Assembly (NCBI GenBank): GCA_040752815.1
Contig: JBFMGC010000028.1
Coordinates: 1 to 35,958 of the forward strand
Origin: Candidatus Zixiibacteriota bacterium
GTDB lineage: Bacteria; Zixibacteria; MSB-5A5; GN15; FEB-12
Reading direction: 5' to 3'
Length of the DNA: 35,958 nt
A program made the position numbers and the translations under genes. Below the pieces are notes generated by a model. It was not told where the DNA came from. It searched no databases and was given only the letters and a program-made list of their open reading frames with translations. Every line of letters starts with the position of its first letter. The stretch's first letter is position 1. Shown piece by piece: positions 24,999-32,891 of the stretch.

Positions 24999-27206
24999 CT
25001 AATGCTTCAAGAGTACTTCGGATATCGCTTTGTTCACTGCCGAGTTTTTGAAGAGAATCTTCTGCGTGGCTGACTGGCTGTCACGAAATTGACGGATGTG
25101 TTCAATTGCCTCCGGTCTGCCGATCTGCCCCAGCGCCCTGACCGCCGCCACACGCAGTTCGTCTTTGGAAACCACGCCGTGAGTCAGTTCGCCGCCCAGT
25201 TGAGGATCGTTAAGGAGTCGGCCGAGGAACTCGTGCGCCTCACTGCCGCCCAGTTTGCCCAGCGCGGTGACTGCCTTAATCGAATTGCGCGGGTCACGGC
25301 GGGCAATATCTATGAGGACCGGGGCCGATTCCGGCCTTCCCACCAGGCCGATGGCTATGATGGCCGCGTCGCGGACTTCGTTGATCGGATCCTCGGCCAT
25401 CAGTGTCAGGCAATCGATAGCTTCTTCCCCACCGATCTTTTCCAGCGCGCCGACAATCTCGCGGCGCACCCGTATGTCGGTGTCGTCGATTCGCGCCCGC
25501 AGCGGCCCCACTCCCTGCGGGTCGCGTAGAGAGCCGAACACGAATATCGAGTTGCGTACGACATACCATTTCTCGTCGGGCAGCTCGTGGCGCTGGGGAT
25601 CGCGCACGAACATCTTGTCATCGTTTAGAATCCGGGAGAAGACTTTCAATGAGGCTTTGCCCAGGTCAGCGAGGATTCTCAGCGTCAATTGGCGCACCGA
25701 ACGCTGCGGATGGGAGATGATCTGGCTGAGAGCGAGCGCGATCTCCTCCGATCCGATTGCCACCAGTATTTCTTTCAAATAGACGGCGGTCTCGCCGCCG
25801 GCGCCGATTAGCTCGCGAACGAGGGCATCGATGGTCTTCTTGCGGCCGATATTCTCGAACCCTTTTTTGATCGCCATAGAGTCGTAGATCGTGACATTCT
25901 CATCGGTGCTTCGGCGAGCCGCCATCGCCTTGGTCAGCTTTGCGGCCAGATCGTAGCGGCCGGCTCCCTGACACGCGGCGAAGACTTGCCAGAGGAATTC
26001 CGAGTACTCGTAGGTCTCGCTCTTGGTCTGAAGGCGCATGACCACGTCAAGAATTGCCGCTTCCAGTACCACCGTGTTGACAGCCTGAGTCAACTGCGGA
26101 GTGGCCAGGCCGAGCAGATTGAGTGCGCGCTGGCGGTACTCCGGTTCCGGGGCGCTCATGAGATCGATCAGGCGGCTGACAATCTCCGCTGCCTTGGTCT
26201 GCTGGCCGGTCTTGAGCAGACGCGCAAAGGCATCGACGAATGCTTCATTGTCGCCCTCGGCGGGCTGCATGGAAAACTGACGTTCGAACAACTGATCGAT
26301 CTGCGCGCTGGTCTGAATCTTGATCGCCCCGGTCTCAGTGAGGCCGTCGCCGCGATGCTCCGACGTCTCGCGCCGGTCATCGAGATTCTCGACTATCCGT
26401 TTCTTCTCCGGATGAAGCTCAACCAGCTTGAAAAGCGACATGTAATCGACCGTGGCGTCATGTGCGGGCTTAGGGCCGGAACCGGCGGAACTAATCTGCG
26501 CGGCCAGTTCCGTGAGCACACGGCGGAAGGCCATGGCATCGATTGCCGCCACTCGTTCAGGCAGAAGAAACGCGACCACCGCGGGATCGAAGTCTATCCC
26601 CAAGTCGAGCAGCCCTTGCTCGTTGACATTCCGGATTCGCGCCAGCCTGATCGGGTCATCACCGAGCTGGTCCATCGCCAAGCGGCGTACCGAAAAGTCC
26701 CCGTCGACATCTCCCCGGTACTGCCTGCGATTCTCGAATAGCTCGTACGCCTGTTCCGTGTTGAGCTGAATCGTGTCGATCTGCCGCTTAACGAGCTCGT
26801 CGGCCAGGCTGAAATTCGAGTCGTAGTGCGACTGGCGGTCGACCATGGTCTGCACGAAGAAACTGAAGTCGTTCACCCTCATGCGGCGGTCGAACAGAAC
26901 GGCATTGATATCAAGCAGTTGCAGGAATTGGAGAATCTGCGCGTTGAACGGCGAGTCCTTTAGACGCAGGTTGAGCAGGAAGAGCTCACCGCGACGGACA
27001 TTCAGGTTAACGAAAATCTTGTAGCGAAGGATCGCACTGAGGACAAAGAACGGCCTCTCGACCGACTTCAGCGCGAGCGGATGGCCGGTGCCGTAGATCG
27101 CCGCCTTGCGGCAGGCCATGGCCATTTCACGGACAAAGTTGTGGGCTTCTTCATTGAGATTGAAGCCCAACATCGATTCTCTGATCGGCAGCGACGGCTT
27201 GCTCAT
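24999..27206 (-). CDS. HEAT-repeat protein of unknown function
   Basis: 735 residues with no signal peptide or membrane helix, so cytoplasmic by inference. The N-terminal 250 residues are a helical/mixed domain (NLNEEAHNFVREMAMACRKAA, VERPFFVLSAIL, VNLNVRRGELFLLNLRLKDS) of no recognised family. A low-complexity, charged linker lies at about 265-300. The C-terminal half, especially 480-735, has repeated HEAT/PBS-lyase units such as IRVRREIVGALEKIGGEEAI, NEVRDAAIIAIGLVGRPESA and LRVAAVRALGQIGRPEAI. These usually make protein-protein scaffolds. The start at 27206 is preferred because GGAG lies 6 bases ahead. The first 56 bases overlap the preceding BamB-like gene, so the pair is translationally linked. 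Confidence 0.85.
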   Translation of the reverse strand: MSKPSLPIRESMLGFNLNEEAHNFVREMAMACRKAAIYGTGHPLALKSVERPFFVLSAILRYKIFVNLNVRRGELFLLNLRLKDSPFNAQILQFLQLLDINAVLFDRRMRVNDFSFFVQTMVDRQSHYDSNFSLADELVKRQIDTIQLNTEQAYELFENRRQYRGDVDGDFSVRRLAMDQLGDDPIRLARIRNVNEQGLLDLGIDFDPAVVAFLLPERVAAIDAMAFRRVLTELAAQISSAGSGPKPAHDATVDYMSLFKLVELHPEKKRIVENLDDRRETSEHRGDGLTETGAIKIQTSAQIDQLFERQFSMQPAEGDNEAFVDAFARLLKTGQQTKAAEIVSRLIDLMSAPEPEYRQRALNLLGLATPQLTQAVNTVVLEAAILDVVMRLQTKSETYEYSEFLWQVFAACQGAGRYDLAAKLTKAMAARRSTDENVTIYDSMAIKKGFENIGRKKTIDALVRELIGAGGETAVYLKEILVAIGSEEIALALSQIISHPQRSVRQLTLRILADLGKASLKVFSRILNDDKMFVRDPQRHELPDEKWYVVRNSIFVFGSLRDPQGVGPLRARIDDTDIRVRREIVGALEKIGGEEAIDCLTLMAEDPINEVRDAAIIAIGLVGRPESAPVLIDIARRDPRNSIKAVTALGKLGGSEAHEFLGRLLNDPQLGGELTHGVVSKDELRVAAVRALGQIGRPEAIEHIRQFRDSQSATQKILFKNSAVNKAISEVLLKH

Positions 27207-28341
27207 GGACGTCTCCAAAACAGTAGATCTTGCCTGCCTGCGTGGCTACAAACAACCGCCTGCCATCAGTGACCGGTGGAACCTCAATAGCTCCCGAGAG
27301 GGTAGTCGAATCGACTACGGCGCCGTCCTCGGCTTTCAGCACAAACAACTGTCCGGTCATGGTGCCGAAAACGACCTTGTCGCCCACAGCGAGCGCCGAT
27401 GCCCGAATGACGTGTCCGGTGGCGTGCCGCCACAAGATTTGTCCGTCGGCAGCGTCCAGCGCCACCAGTTCGCCGCCGCTGTGGCCTACAAATAGCCTGC
27501 CGTTGCAAACCGCGGGGCTGGTCCAAGTCGGGCCGCCGATCTCGGACTGCCAAACAACGCGACCGTCGTCCGGGTCCACCCCATATACCTGGCCGGTCAT
27601 CACTGCGGCATAAATCAGATCGCCCACCGCAACTGGGCTGACCAGGGGGCCGTCCACCCGAACTTCGTAAAGCTCTCGACCACTGTCGGCCGACAATGCG
27701 TACAGCCGTCCGCGATCGCAGGGCTGAAAAATCCGCCCGTGGCCGTAACTGGCTGCCGCTGACGGCCGCCATTCGGGCCGCGTCTCCCAGGCCGTTTCAC
27801 CATCGCCAAGCTCCAAAGCCAGCACACGGCCGTCTGCGGAACTCACGATAAGGCGGTTACCCACTATTATCGGCCCAGGGCGGACATCCTTGACGTTCCT
27901 CTGCCAAAGGCGCTTGCCGGTCAGGAAATCAACTGCCCTCAGGAAATCCTTGCGCGGAGAAACACCATAGATAGCCAGACTGTCAGCCACCGCGACACCC
28001 GTCTGAGGTACACCATTGGCGCGCCACCGCCCCGGTTGATCGCCGCTTGCAACTTCAAAAAACCGTATCTTCTTCTTACTTTCCGGGAAGATTATGAGAT
28101 CATTATGGATCGCCAGCGGCCCCGCCGGCTTCCCTGACAGCCCCTCTGACCAGAGCAAACTCAAGCGCCCGCCGAATTCGGCACGGTCATCGGCCCCAAG
28201 CTGAGCCGCCGTGCCTCGCGAAATGGCATATCCTTCGGCAGAGATTCGCTCGCGCTCAAGCCGCATGACCCGCCCGCACGAGGCGACGATCAAGGCCAGC
28301 CCGACTATTAGGACAATCGATACTGTGAGCGCTCGACTCAT
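27151..28341 (-). CDS. BamB-like PQQ-type beta-propeller lipoprotein
   Basis: 396 residues. A lipoprotein signal peptide ends in the lipobox LIVASC (Cys at about residue 22). The mature protein is a series of PQQ-like propeller blades, seen as repeats such as GRVLALELGDGETAWE, GRLYALSADSGRELYE, GQVYGVDPDDGRVVWQ, GELVALDAADGQILWR and GQLFVLKAEDGAVV. BamB, the scaffold lipoprotein of the barrel-assembly machine, has this architecture, but so do PQQ dehydrogenase-like sensors. No PQQ-catalytic residues were identified. The ATG overlaps the stop of the Omp85-barrel fusion gene by one base (TGATG), and the 3' end overlaps the HEAT-repeat gene by 56 bases. Linkage to an Omp85-type barrel supports a BamB-like role; this is inference. 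Confidence 0.87.
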   Translation of the reverse strand: MSRALTVSIVLIVGLALIVASCGRVMRLERERISAEGYAISRGTAAQLGADDRAEFGGRLSLLWSEGLSGKPAGPLAIHNDLIIFPESKKKIRFFEVASGDQPGRWRANGVPQTGVAVADSLAIYGVSPRKDFLRAVDFLTGKRLWQRNVKDVRPGPIIVGNRLIVSSADGRVLALELGDGETAWETRPEWRPSAAASYGHGRIFQPCDRGRLYALSADSGRELYEVRVDGPLVSPVAVGDLIYAAVMTGQVYGVDPDDGRVVWQSEIGGPTWTSPAVCNGRLFVGHSGGELVALDAADGQILWRHATGHVIRASALAVGDKVVFGTMTGQLFVLKAEDGAVVDSTTLSGAIEVPPVTDGRRLFVATQAGKIYCFGDVHEQAVAADQRIDVGLQSQ

Positions 28342-31154
28342 CAGAAATTCCACCCGAAGAAAAAGTCGAAATCGAAGCCGGGACTGGTTGTCTCAAAATC
28401 GGTGGTGCGCGCGAAATCAAAGCGAAGCAGCACTACGTAGCCCAGATTCACTCTAAAGCCAAAGCCGTACGAACCGAGCAGTTCGTCAAAGTCATCGTCC
28501 CAGGCCGAACCGAGATCAAAGAAAAGCGCCCCGCGTATGCCCCGGAAGCCGATATCGCCGAATGGCAGGCCGATCAGAAGATCGTCTATCAGTGGAAAGC
28601 GAAGCTCATGAGACGCGAAGATTACTTTGCGGGTGTAGAATTCGCGACGGTCGAACCCTCGGAAGGTCCAGCTTCCCCCGAAATAAATCCGCTGCGGCTC
28701 AAGACCACCAGACGTGAATCCGAACAGCCTCTGGGCAATGGCCGAATTAGCGCCCAGCCGCAGATAGTGACGGATATCGGCCAGAGCGATCCGGTTCCAT
28801 GCCCGGCCGTGAGTGAGCGACTGAGATATGCCCGCAGAAAGATTATAGCGCCGTCCTTCGATAGGCCCGCTAATATCCCAGATGGAGTTATCATAGACCC
28901 AACTGACGAAGGACGAAACCAGAAACCCTTCCCGATCCTCCAGACCAAACCTGCGGTCCTTTTTGTCATAACGAACGAAACTGGTCAAATCGAACCGGCT
29001 GAATTTGGACACCGGATAGCTGAAGAACCCAAGGGCACCGGCCTGGCGTCTGAAGTAGTAGAGATCCTTGCGATCATAATACTCGTCGTAGAGATGGAAC
29101 AGCCCGGTGCCCCAATTGAGACGGTGCGCCCGATTGACATACGTAACCCCCAAGTTGAATGACTCCAGCAGATCGTCTTTGGTTTCCGCCGTGTTGGTCA
29201 GCAGGAAGTAATAAGCATGATTGCCGAGGATGTCGGAAAACGACGCCTGCAATCCGCCGGCCGATCCATATATCGGATCATAGGCGATGGTCGATTGGGC
29301 AATGTCAAACGAATAGTCGGTCTCGTACTTGACCGTCGATTTGCTCACTCCTCGGTCAATCTGGCGCGGCGCCCAGGCAGAGTGAGCAAGCGCGGCGGTA
29401 TTTGCCACGGGCGGCGTGCTGTCCCTGAGCTTCATCTCGTACACACGAAATTGAAAGTCTTCGTAACCGGTGTATACGAGATGTTTCCCATCGGCAGTCA
29501 TCCTCGGATCGAACGAGCCGGTCGCAACGGCTGATTGCCGGGTAATCGCCCCCGATGAATCCAGCAGAAAGAGATTGTATGCTCCGCCGCGGTTCGATGC
29601 GAAGAAGGTCCCTCGCCGGGTGATATCGGGTGTCTGATCGTGAAAATCTCCCCAGGTAAGCTGGTGAATCTCGGTCGGGTCTTCGAGGAAGACCTCAAAC
29701 AGATTTGTCGCTCCGACGGCGCCGCGGTCACACCGATCCGATGCAAAGATGATGGCCGATCCATCAAGTGAAAAGACCGGATCAATGTCATGATAGATGT
29801 CATGGGTAACGGCTGTCAGTGATCTGTCAGCCAGATTCAGCAAGTAGACATCCGTGTAGCCGCTCCTGCGAATGCCGCTGAAGACGATTCGTTTTCCGTC
29901 CGGAGAGAATCTCGGCGAGCGGGCGGCAATCAGCTCGCCGAGGCGGTACTCGCCCACGATCCGGCCCTCGGCCAGACTATAAGTGTAAATGACATCCTGC
30001 TCCTGTGATTTGGACGAAAAGGCGATCAATCCGTCGCGGTTAGAATCGATCCCGGACCGCAGTAAGTGCAGCGACTCGAAACGACTGGATCGCTCGCCTT
30101 TGACCAGCGTGCGCAACTCGTCACCGTTGGAGTGTCGGGGCTTCATGTAGATGCCGGTGTAGCCGCGACGGTAGGCCATGAAGACGATCCAGTCGCGCTT
30201 GCCGGAGCCGTCATCCCACGTAATCGGCACCCCTTTGACGGAATAACCGTCGAAGGTAAGCTGTTCCGACTCCATGCGGGGCAGGCCGAGTTCGGCGATC
30301 TCGGGGAAGTACTTCTTCTTGAGCCAGTACTGCCACTCGTCGGAGGCTTTATCGATCGGTCGACCCAGGGTCAGGTGCAGAACCTCCTCGAAACTGCGGC
30401 CCTTGGTCCAGTTCTCGAAAACCAAAAGCAGTTTCTCGGGGCCGTACTCTTCACTTATAAACTTACACACCGACTGGCCGAGCTTGTACATGAAGTACGT
30501 ACCCTGAATCTTCCAGAACTCGGTTATGGGAAGGATATCGCCGCGGAGGACCATGTCCTTGACGATCATGTCGGCTTCCGTGTCCCACTCCTCGGACCAG
30601 TGCTCGGCCAGGCCCTCGGTGAACCAGAGGGGAAGACCGGTAAAGCGGATTACGCTCTGGCGGCGGGTGATTTCGTCGAGCTTGGCCAGCGTGAACACGT
30701 GCACCAGTTCATGCACGATGACATGCTCGAAATCGAAATACGACCCGTGGAAAGGAACAACCACCCGTCCCTTCAGAAACTCGGTGAACCCGGCCACTGA
30801 TTCGGGAAGCAGCCCGGGGACTATATTAGTCTGTGAAAAGTACATCGGTGACGAGTAAATGATCAGCGGAATGTTGCGCTTGATTTCGAGATTGAAGCGC
30901 GCCGCCAGTTTCGGATAGCTGTCCTCGGCAATTCGGGCCGCCACCTGGGCGATTTCGGTCTCCTCGGCGTAGAAATAAATATGGAAGTGGTCGGTGGTCA
31001 TCACCTGCCAGTCAAAATCGGTATACTGAACCTTGTTCTTGCCGAAATAGAACTGCGCAGACGCAGGAACCGGCAGCAGACAAGTCAAACTTGCCGCCAG
31101 AAGGGTAATGACAACCTGGGAGATTGTCCGGCAGGATCTTAATTGAACGACCAT
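28341..31154 (-). CDS. Zinc-peptidase / TolB-type propeller / Omp85-type barrel fusion protein
   Basis: 937 residues in three modules. Residues 1-33 are a signal peptide ending VPASA. Residues about 50-330 form a gluzincin (peptidase MA-like) domain. It has HELVH at 148-152 and a downstream WFTEGLAEHWSEEW (178-190) whose glutamate is the expected third zinc ligand. Residues about 330-620 are WD40/TolB-like propeller repeats (SPRFSPDGKRIVFSGIRRSG, DPVFSLDGSAIIFASDR, DPRMTADGKHLVYTG). Residues about 640-937 resemble an Omp85/BamA C-terminal barrel: alternating aromatic strands, GGSWTFRGFDRREF (the RGF/Y motif), LRFPLIDD, FFDLGSAWDD and a terminal FFFGWNF with a C-terminal Phe. The protein should sit in the outer membrane with peptidase and propeller in the periplasm or outside. 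It heads the operon with the BamB-like lipoprotein and the HEAT protein. No clear Shine-Dalgarno site precedes the ATG. Substrate unknown. Confidence 0.88.
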   Translation of the reverse strand: MVVQLRSCRTISQVVITLLAASLTCLLPVPASAQFYFGKNKVQYTDFDWQVMTTDHFHIYFYAEETEIAQVAARIAEDSYPKLAARFNLEIKRNIPLIIYSSPMYFSQTNIVPGLLPESVAGFTEFLKGRVVVPFHGSYFDFEHVIVHELVHVFTLAKLDEITRRQSVIRFTGLPLWFTEGLAEHWSEEWDTEADMIVKDMVLRGDILPITEFWKIQGTYFMYKLGQSVCKFISEEYGPEKLLLVFENWTKGRSFEEVLHLTLGRPIDKASDEWQYWLKKKYFPEIAELGLPRMESEQLTFDGYSVKGVPITWDDGSGKRDWIVFMAYRRGYTGIYMKPRHSNGDELRTLVKGERSSRFESLHLLRSGIDSNRDGLIAFSSKSQEQDVIYTYSLAEGRIVGEYRLGELIAARSPRFSPDGKRIVFSGIRRSGYTDVYLLNLADRSLTAVTHDIYHDIDPVFSLDGSAIIFASDRCDRGAVGATNLFEVFLEDPTEIHQLTWGDFHDQTPDITRRGTFFASNRGGAYNLFLLDSSGAITRQSAVATGSFDPRMTADGKHLVYTGYEDFQFRVYEMKLRDSTPPVANTAALAHSAWAPRQIDRGVSKSTVKYETDYSFDIAQSTIAYDPIYGSAGGLQASFSDILGNHAYYFLLTNTAETKDDLLESFNLGVTYVNRAHRLNWGTGLFHLYDEYYDRKDLYYFRRQAGALGFFSYPVSKFSRFDLTSFVRYDKKDRRFGLEDREGFLVSSFVSWVYDNSIWDISGPIEGRRYNLSAGISQSLTHGRAWNRIALADIRHYLRLGANSAIAQRLFGFTSGGLEPQRIYFGGSWTFRGFDRREFYTRKVIFASHELRFPLIDDLLIGLPFGDIGFRGIRGALFFDLGSAWDDDFDELLGSYGFGFRVNLGYVVLLRFDFARTTDFETTSPGFDFDFFFGWNF

Positions 31155-31295: not shown

Positions 31296-32891
31296 TCAGG
31301 ACAAAGCCGTCTCTCCTTGCAGAAGTAACCTGACGGCCGCCGCAAGATCGTCGGCCACGTCGACACCAAACCCGCGCAGGCGATCCGGCCGTCTTGTTTC
31401 AACTGTCGCGCCGTAACCGGTCCGCACTAGTATCGGCCGCGCACCGATTACCCGCGCCAGGGCAATGTCAGGTACGGAATCACCGATTACCACCGAGCGC
31501 CGCAGATCGAGCCCGAGCTCCAGAGCGGCCTGTTCGGCCATGCCGGGCGACGGTTTCCGGCAGCGACAGGACTGGTTCATCGAAGCCGGCCGGCTCTTCG
31601 AACTATGATGCGGGCAATAATAGATGGCGTCAAAATCAGCGCCGCGATCACGCAACTGCTCGCGCACACGGGCATTGACACGCTCAACATCGTCGATAGT
31701 ATGCAGTCCCCGAGCGACCCCTGACTGGTTCGAAACTACGACGACTTTGTAGCCAAGCTGTCGCGCCTGACGCAGCGCCTCCGGTACGCCGTCGATAAGC
31801 TCCACGCCCTCGGGATCGGCGAGATAATGCTTGTTGTGGATTAGGGTCCCGTCGCGATCAACAAACAAACAAGGCGTCAGTCGGGCTGTCTCGTCGAGCA
31901 TTTCAACCGCAACTCCCGCCACGCTCTCGGATGTTAGTTTCGTGAAACAGTAACGCTCCTCGCGCCAGCAGGGTTTCTTCCCATGGCGCGAGCAGGGGCG
32001 GCAGAACTCGTCCACCTGCATGATCCGATCACGCAGCCCGCGCGGCGCAAAACCAAGCACCGGGTGGGTCGGTCCAAACAGGGCGAGAACCGGTGTTCCC
32101 ACCGCGGAACCGATATGCCCGACCCCCGAATCGTTGCATATGACCAGGGCGACCCGCGACACTATCGCCGCGAGCTGATCGAGGGGACAATCAACAAGTT
32201 CGGTGAGGCCCCGTTGCCGCAAGTCATTCGGCGCACCGTAAGCGGACCTCTCCGACGATGTAACAGCCCACACGATACTTACCGATTTCGCGACCTGTAA
32301 CTGGCGCGCTACTTCGGCGAAGCGCTCCACCGGCCAGGCTTTGGTGGGGTGCGCCGCGCCCGGAGCGATTAGAACAACCGGGCGACCTGTGTCTACAACT
32401 GCTGCAAGATCTGGTGCCAGCGGCGGGGCGGCCATGAGCGGCCGGTCACACGGCGCGCGTTTATCCTGCCGGATCAGAACGTCATTGTACAAATCAATCG
32501 TATGCGGATATTCTGACGGTAGGGTCTTCTTCCTGCGTGTGAGTACCCACCTCTCCCAACGTCTCTTCGGATATGTGTAAATGCTATTAGTTCTCAATAC
32601 CGAGCGCGCAAACCACGATCGCAGGTTGCCGTGCAGATCCACTACCTGTTCGAAACCAGAACCCTCGATATTGAGAAGCATCTCAAACAGGGTTCGCACC
32701 GTGATTCGATCCGGCACGGTCTCGACCGTATCGACCCCAAAAAAAAGGTCAACTAACGGCCGGAAGCGCTCCCGCGTGAGATAGACAATCCGGCTGTCAG
32801 GATGGGCAAGCTTGAGATTGACTACGGTCGCCGACGTTAGGACCACGTCGCCCAGTGATCCAAATCGAATTACCAGGGTGCGGCTCTGCAT
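31296..32891 (-). CDS. Glycosyltransferase family 9 (heptosyltransferase) fused to GmhB-type HAD phosphatase
   Basis: 531 residues. Residues 1-335 are a GT9 domain (ADP-heptose:LPS heptosyltransferase family) with RFGSLGDVVLTSATV (9-23), VVDLHGNLRS (83-92), IAPGAAHPTKAWPVERF (175-191) and CNDSGVGHIGSAVGTPVLALFGPT (252-275). Residues 340-531 are a histidinol-phosphate/GmhB-type HAD phosphatase. It has VDRDGTLI (nucleophile D345), VVVVSNQSGVARG (383-395), the zinc loop C426-P-H428 with C442-R-C444, RKPSPGM and GDSVPDIALA. GmhB removes the 1-phosphate from heptose 1,7-bisphosphate on the way to ADP-heptose, so the fusion couples donor synthesis with heptose transfer. The ATG directly abuts the uppP stop (TAAATG) with no own ribosome site. 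Confidence 0.93.
   Translation of the reverse strand: MQSRTLVIRFGSLGDVVLTSATVVNLKLAHPDSRIVYLTRERFRPLVDLFFGVDTVETVPDRITVRTLFEMLLNIEGSGFEQVVDLHGNLRSWFARSVLRTNSIYTYPKRRWERWVLTRRKKTLPSEYPHTIDLYNDVLIRQDKRAPCDRPLMAAPPLAPDLAAVVDTGRPVVLIAPGAAHPTKAWPVERFAEVARQLQVAKSVSIVWAVTSSERSAYGAPNDLRQRGLTELVDCPLDQLAAIVSRVALVICNDSGVGHIGSAVGTPVLALFGPTHPVLGFAPRGLRDRIMQVDEFCRPCSRHGKKPCWREERYCFTKLTSESVAGVAVEMLDETARLTPCLFVDRDGTLIHNKHYLADPEGVELIDGVPEALRQARQLGYKVVVVSNQSGVARGLHTIDDVERVNARVREQLRDRGADFDAIYYCPHHSSKSRPASMNQSCRCRKPSPGMAEQAALELGLDLRRSVVIGDSVPDIALARVIGARPILVRTGYGATVETRRPDRLRGFGVDVADDLAAAVRLLLQGETALS

Follow-up and report, generated by a model that had tools for sequence, protein, structure and literature searches.

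A peptidase-propeller-Omp85 barrel fusion without POTRA domains and its BamB-like lipoprotein neighbour in Zixibacteria: a possible accessory device of the outer membrane

Omp85 proteins are usually thought to require POTRA domains for receiving their substrates. The window analysed here (the whole stretch of 35,958 nucleotides from a Zixibacteria contig) encodes a protein in which a peptidase and a propeller precede an Omp85-type barrel, with a gene for a BamB-like lipoprotein starting in its stop codon. What might such a barrel do with no POTRA in front of it, and does the lipoprotein belong with it? The original prediction, made from the letters alone, had proposed a self-contained outer-membrane machine that recognises, processes and exports or inserts its substrate. 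The features on which the following analysis relies are:

28341..31154, minus strand: peptidase MA-propeller-Omp85 fusion (hereafter type A), 937 aa
31056..31154, minus strand: signal peptide of the fusion, residues 1-33, with the cleavage site between ASA and Q
31011..31055, minus strand: mature N-terminal tail, residues 34-48 (QFYFGKNKVQY..FD), from conservation
30267..31010, minus strand: Peptidase MA (gluzincin) domain, residues 49-296, from Pfam PF13485 and the helices and strands of the model
30699..30713, minus strand: HELVH zinc-binding/catalytic motif, residues 148-152, with H148, E149 and H152 invariant
30603..30617, minus strand: EGLAE, residues 180-184, with E180, G181, A183 and E184 invariant in 73 sequences
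29430..30245, minus strand: TolB-like six-bladed propeller, residues 304-575, from PD40, TIGR02800, fold and strand pattern
29316..29429, minus strand: linker, residues 576-613, without a POTRA fold
28344..29315, minus strand: 16-stranded Omp85-type barrel, residues 614-937, ending in Phe, from the model and BamA fold matches
28629..28706, minus strand: loop 6, residues 817-842, between strands 11 and 12, with RGF at 832-834
28339..28343, minus strand: TGATG stop/start overlap coupling the fusion and lipoprotein genes
27151..28341, minus strand: BamB-like PQQ-propeller lipoprotein, 396 aa from the ATG, eight-bladed, from PQQ_2, model and fold
28276..28287, minus strand: lipobox VASC, with Cys22 as the predicted lipidation site, from conservation

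Both reading frames lie where the original prediction had put them, and the junction reads TTC TGA TG, with the ATG of the lipoprotein gene using the A of the fusion's stop codon (1-base overlap). The signal peptide, HELVH zinc site, TolB-like repeats and Omp85-like barrel ending in Phe that had been read from the sequence were all borne out by Pfam, AlphaFold and conservation, in the order signal peptide, Peptidase MA, TolB-like propeller and Omp85-type barrel. Briefly, the structure was predicted by running AlphaFold on an alignment of 73 sequences, and the model of the 937-aa protein has a mean pLDDT of 84.8 and a pTM of 0.81. Pfam assigned Peptidase_MA_2 to residues 76-279 (39.1 bits versus a cut-off of 32.4) as well as PD40 (42.2 bits versus 20.9), and NCBIfam gave TolB, Omp85-family and BamA matches, each under its equivalog or subfamily cut-off. 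The mean column identity per domain is 0.65 for the peptidase, 0.63 for the barrel, 0.54 for the propeller and 0.30 for the linker.

The Pfam scan of the fusion retrieved neither an M48 nor a TPR match, the assigned family being Peptidase_MA_2. The hallmark of the Peptidase MA/gluzincin group, HExxH with a downstream Glu, is present, and H148, E149, H152, E180 and E184 are identical in 73 of 73 aligned sequences, a set which takes in three entries of a distant paralogue group, two of them from one genome. The invariance of H148, E149, H152 and E180 is far beyond chance. The analogy with gluzincins places the third zinc ligand at the Glu downstream of HExxH, which we take to be E180 here. On that analogy the third ligand is likely E180, which lies within the WFxEG motif (HExxH-x27-E), and the FTEGLAEHW stretch pointed out by the original prediction downstream of the zinc site would most likely supply it through this residue. 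Zinc-dependent catalysis by the domain is likely, judging from the conserved residues. Ahead of the peptidase, 70 of 73 homologues have A, G or S just before Q34, and residues 34-48 form the best-conserved part of the fusion (mean 0.86). AlphaFold confidence is low about residues 27-39, overlapping this conserved tail, and it is possible that QFYFGKNKVQY acts as an autoinhibitory or plug segment. The host genome also encodes a third Peptidase_MA_2 protein (G000:C2:126129-126521, L131; 301-aa frame).

In the AlphaFold model, the propeller strands of residues 304-575 sort into six blades, as in TolB. TolB was the top match both in the fold search, for the propeller (E 1e-11), and in the search of the family profile against PDB sequences (1e-37), and the TolB equivalog score of the fusion is 87 bits, far under the cut-off of 343.

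For the C-terminal part, a closed barrel of 16 strands had been anticipated, and AlphaFold predicts exactly that number over residues 614-935. For the barrel, the fold search retrieved those of BamA, with target-normalised TM-scores of up to 0.62, and among PDB sequences the family profile matched TamA (3.5e-5) and 9ccg (1.5e-6), a POTRA protein described by the fold search as Fusobacterium BamA. In the genome search, Pfam Omp85 scored 29.0 bits on the C-terminal part of the fusion (cut-off 24). As Omp85 is absent from the full-length hmmscan listing of the protein, the barrel assignment also rests on the profile and structure matches. RGF lies in the long loop that joins strands 11 and 12, the place of the loop-6 motif in BamA; R832 and G833 are invariant in the 73 sequences and the next residue is Y, W or F in 72 of 73. 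In the same alignment D880, G934 and F937 are invariant too, and R832/G833, D880 and G934/F937 resemble lid and gate features of BamA. In BamA, G807 sits at the lateral seam (PMC8655018), and G934, three residues before the C-terminus of the fusion, would match its place, which we take as a lead only. In several barrel strands the less hydrophobic side, presumably facing the lumen, is the more conserved one. This lumen-side conservation, together with a barrel that is conserved like the peptidase, mildly disfavours a role of the barrel as a mere anchor.

The proposed lack of POTRAs was upheld. No POTRA was found in the fusion by hmmscan at E<=1, the model shows only the linker before the barrel (poorly conserved over residues 576-609), and the POTRA search of the host genome gave matches confined to three other proteins. 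Whether the fusion counts as an Omp85/TpsB protein depends on the definition: PMC4104836 names the barrel as the defining feature of the superfamily and does not demand a POTRA, and both the barrel and the RG(F/Y) motif are found in the fusion, whereas the definition by at least one POTRA (PMC11116518) leaves it outside.

The downstream gene encodes a lipoprotein with an eight-bladed PQQ propeller, as expected of a BamB. Pfam PQQ_2 matches it with 131.9 bits, the structure model (pLDDT 93.1) has eight blades, and its nine best PDB fold matches are all BamB; the NCBIfam BamB equivalog reaches 122.9 bits, under the cut-off of 285.2. Cys22 is invariant in 17 lipoprotein sequences (A2), and over a set of 39 (A4) its conservation is 90% or more. 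The protein is the only one with PQQ_2 in the host genome.

The closest homologues with a named source come from Candidatus Zixiibacteriota MAGs, which places the host genome in Zixibacteria. Some match to the fusion was obtained in 132 of 132 Zixibacteria genomes. By our reading, 122 of them have a type-A match with an E-value below 1e-100, and most of the remaining ten are incomplete MAGs. Outside the phylum, type A is found in 73 of 119 genomes of the Ignavibacteria class (36-44% identity), as well as in Calditrichota. A paralogue, type B, adjoins a murA-like gene in the host genome (L117:8254-11547, G000:C1; 1097 aa) and is widespread in Zixibacteria and Ignavibacteria. It has the peptidase, propeller and barrel in unchanged order, with a long Ser/Thr/Asp-rich linker ahead of the barrel. 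Since type B carries all three domains, the fusion event probably predates the A/B split. A relative of the peptidase-propeller part without the barrel is encoded on the Salinibacter ruber plasmid pSR116 (L087:5935-7836, 633 aa, 27% identity) and annotated as "basic secretory protein-like"; the gene after it was considered as a separate barrel and gave no NCBIfam match. Two further candidates for separated forms were set aside. A truncated homologue (L028/L123) was rejected as a natural barrel-less form because a run of masking Ns covers that part of it, and a Calditrichota homologue that could be taken for a split gene is most likely a single gene interrupted by contig ends.

The lipoprotein follows the fusion closely through these genomes. 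The original prediction had counted on homologues being found beside the BamB-like gene, and in 54 of 57 type-A loci the lipoprotein gene comes right after the fusion, a count in which some genomes figure twice, from two collections; of the remaining three, two are cut by a contig end and one is masked. Within the 119 genomes of the Ignavibacteria class, the partner accompanies the fusion in 73 of 73 and occurs in 1 of the 46 that lack the fusion; in that lone genome (G175) the signal consists only of partial matches in larger ORFs. The partner is adjacent to the fusion in 52 of the 73, and in the other 21 the best match is non-adjacent, several of these pairs being on long contigs. On a species-proxy tree, built from the type-B protein, the fusion label changes about 7 times, and in a well-supported clade (G164, G200, G253 and G192) both fusion and partner are missing, with sister genomes carrying both unlinked. 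This pattern is the best evidence that the two proteins act together, to be read with the caveats that related genomes are non-independent, that gaps in MAGs can look like loss, and that the tree is that of a paralogue. The association thus survives the unlinking of the genes, and linkage and co-inheritance support the lipoprotein as a dedicated partner of the fusion, with which it would presumably be in physical contact. The possibility that the lipoprotein's real partner is the type-B paralogue was rejected, no PQQ gene being found near type B.

Zixibacterial loci run UppP, heptosyltransferase/HAD-phosphatase, fusion, lipoprotein, HEAT and HSP20; in another lineage, the fusion is preceded by TatC and NrdR-like genes. 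Loci of Ignavibacteria run PtsI, phosphoglucose isomerase, fusion, lipoprotein, (PEGA), CRP, PHP, RibH and PorZ-like, so that only the fusion and lipoprotein pair is common to both neighbourhoods. The survey for conserved substrates suggested with the original prediction retrieved no conserved neighbour that would qualify, the flanking genes changing between phyla. What does recur in Ignavibacteria is a PEGA-domain protein with a hydrophobic C-terminus, encoded after the lipoprotein gene even when the latter is unlinked from the fusion. In Calditrichota a similar protein, without a Pfam match, follows the lipoprotein gene. The loci are:

L135, L136, L137, L138, L143, L145 and L019: PEGA-domain follower of the lipoprotein gene
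L125 (Calditrichota): similar follower without a Pfam match

It is possible that the PEGA-domain protein is a third component. With this follower in Ignavibacteria and a partner co-inherited even when unlinked, the claim of a "self-contained" machine becomes doubtful.

Two other genes of the window flank the pair. At 31296-32891 (minus strand), a single ORF combines a family-9 heptosyltransferase (residues 78-304) and a HAD phosphatase (about 343-517), the latter GmhB-like by pathway position, and many Zixibacteria carry this ORF ahead of the fusion. At 24999-27218 (minus strand), a HEAT-repeat protein of at most 739 aa, in which no signal peptide is obvious, is encoded in a gene whose longest reading overlaps the end of the lipoprotein gene; many Zixibacteria have it beside the pair, and the versions in L016, L017 and L032 are very divergent. 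Elsewhere, the host genome encodes a canonical BamA with five POTRAs near an LpxD-like gene, a TamA adjoining a TamB-like gene, and LptD (the LpxD-like and TamB-like labels being readings of sequence and position). Given this separate BamA and the TamA/TamB-like pair, the fusion is accessory rather than the main insertase.

The anatomy of the fusion and its partnership with the lipoprotein have good computational support, and from them we infer, tentatively and at a little under an even chance, an accessory machine for the assembly or quality control of outer-membrane proteins. The 16-stranded barrel would seat the fusion in the outer membrane, and the zinc metallopeptidase and TolB-like propeller would hang in the periplasm under the mouth of the barrel, in the position that POTRAs have in BamA. 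The BamB-like lipoprotein, presumably anchored in the outer membrane, would serve the fusion as its partner. Both propellers might capture unfolded or stalled outer-membrane or surface proteins, which the barrel would then help to insert, or which the peptidase would trim or destroy. The domain content and model, the invariant zinc site, the conservation of the barrel and the linkage and co-inheritance of the partner support this reading. It is weakened by BepA being an M48 peptidase and the domain of the fusion a Peptidase_MA_2, by the existence of the barrel-less Salinibacter relative, and by neighbours that reveal no substrate. It is weakened further by the precedent of PlpD: an enzyme-bearing Omp85 barrel does not have to be an assembly factor (PMC11116518). 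A stronger version, rather unlikely in our view, would have the pair as a second dedicated outer-membrane assembly and quality-control machine of Zixibacteria, Ignavibacteria and Calditrichota, in which peptidase and propeller do the substrate handling of POTRAs, the BamB relative serves the fusion rather than BamA, and the tail QxYFGxNKVQY is a regulator of the enzyme or a plug for the barrel.

The main rival is a scaffold like that of PlpD, in which the barrel merely anchors and positions a periplasmic peptidase-propeller at the outer membrane, with no insertion or transport, while the enzyme would act on envelope proteins, maturing or degrading them, with the lipoprotein as its substrate adaptor. 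We regard this as possible, if on the doubtful side: PlpD keeps its enzyme domain periplasmic, with an apparent role in lipid homeostasis (PMC11116518), and a peptidase-propeller relative does exist without the barrel, but the barrel is conserved like the peptidase and its loop-6 and C-terminal residues are invariant, which a pure anchor would not obviously need. Secretion of the TpsB/type V kind, with a surface protein recognised and cut by propeller and peptidase in transit through the barrel pore, could draw on a propeller able to bind substrates and on barrels such as FhaC, which can translocate proteins (PMC4104836). However, there is no conserved linked substrate gene, the neighbours differ between Zixibacteria and Ignavibacteria, and the near-universal presence in the phylum fits housekeeping better, so we find this improbable. 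That the fusion replaces BamA as the main insertase of the phylum is very improbable; the host's only BamB homologue is encoded beside the fusion rather than beside BamA, but the same genome has a canonical five-POTRA BamA, as well as TamA beside a TamB-like gene.

The pair suggests, in a poorly known phylum, an unrecognised outer-membrane assembly or quality-control device, and the accessory machine remains our preferred reading of it. A lineage-wide POTRA-less Omp85 protein with a protease, and a BamB homologue that tracks the fusion and not BamA, make the roles of POTRAs and BamB directly testable. Moreover, for phyla in which cultured members are few or absent, they offer a concrete lead on function in envelope biogenesis.

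Of known systems, the closest in architecture was described in 2014 by Heinz and Lithgow, who defined ten Omp85/TpsB subfamilies, including a POTRA-less "WD40-Omp85" with a TolB-like propeller that they likened to a BamA-BamB fusion (PMC4104836). Its defining architecture, a WD40/TolB-like propeller and an Omp85 barrel without POTRA, is also that of our fusion. The original prediction had taken a propeller in place of POTRAs to lie outside known biology; this part did not stand, propeller-Omp85 proteins without POTRA having been known since that study, while the domain order, the Omp85-type barrel, the lack of POTRAs and the BamB-like association did. What appears new is the peptidase and the partner. 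Neither a peptidase domain nor a separate BamB-like partner is described for WD40-Omp85 in the main text of PMC4104836, and subfamilies of this type have a scattered, genus-level distribution there, whereas the fusion is near-universal in its phylum. Literature searches for Zixibacteria with Omp85, or PD40 with Omp85, found nothing, and a peptidase and BamB-like partner on a WD40-Omp85-like protein appear undescribed in the searchable papers, among them the main text of the WD40-Omp85 study. The "Metallo" subfamily is defined in that study by PF00149, a different domain from the peptidase of the fusion.

With PlpD, the fusion shares an enzyme domain N-terminal to an Omp85 barrel, but PlpD has a patatin lipase and a POTRA where the fusion has a zinc peptidase and no POTRA. 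The PlpD enzyme domain stays periplasmic, its barrel may be a scaffold, and the protein apparently acts in lipid homeostasis (PMC11116518); by analogy, this precedent disfavours export of the fusion's own peptidase. The propeller is like TolB in being six-bladed, with TolB as top sequence and fold match, and differs in lying between a peptidase and a barrel. BepA is a metallopeptidase acting on barrels at BAM (PMC8423444), and a similar role for a periplasmic zinc metallopeptidase on outer-membrane barrels is proposed for the fusion, although BepA is of the M48 family, with TPR repeats, and a separate soluble protein without propeller or barrel. The likeness to BamA and BamB lies in the 16-stranded barrel, the RGF of loop 6, the aromatic C-terminus and an eight-bladed PQQ lipoprotein as the likely partner; in BAM, however, POTRAs dock BamB, whereas the fusion has the peptidase and a second propeller instead, and its partner scores below the BamB equivalog cut-off. 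Overall, the pair might best be likened to BamA and BamB with a built-in protease of the BepA type.
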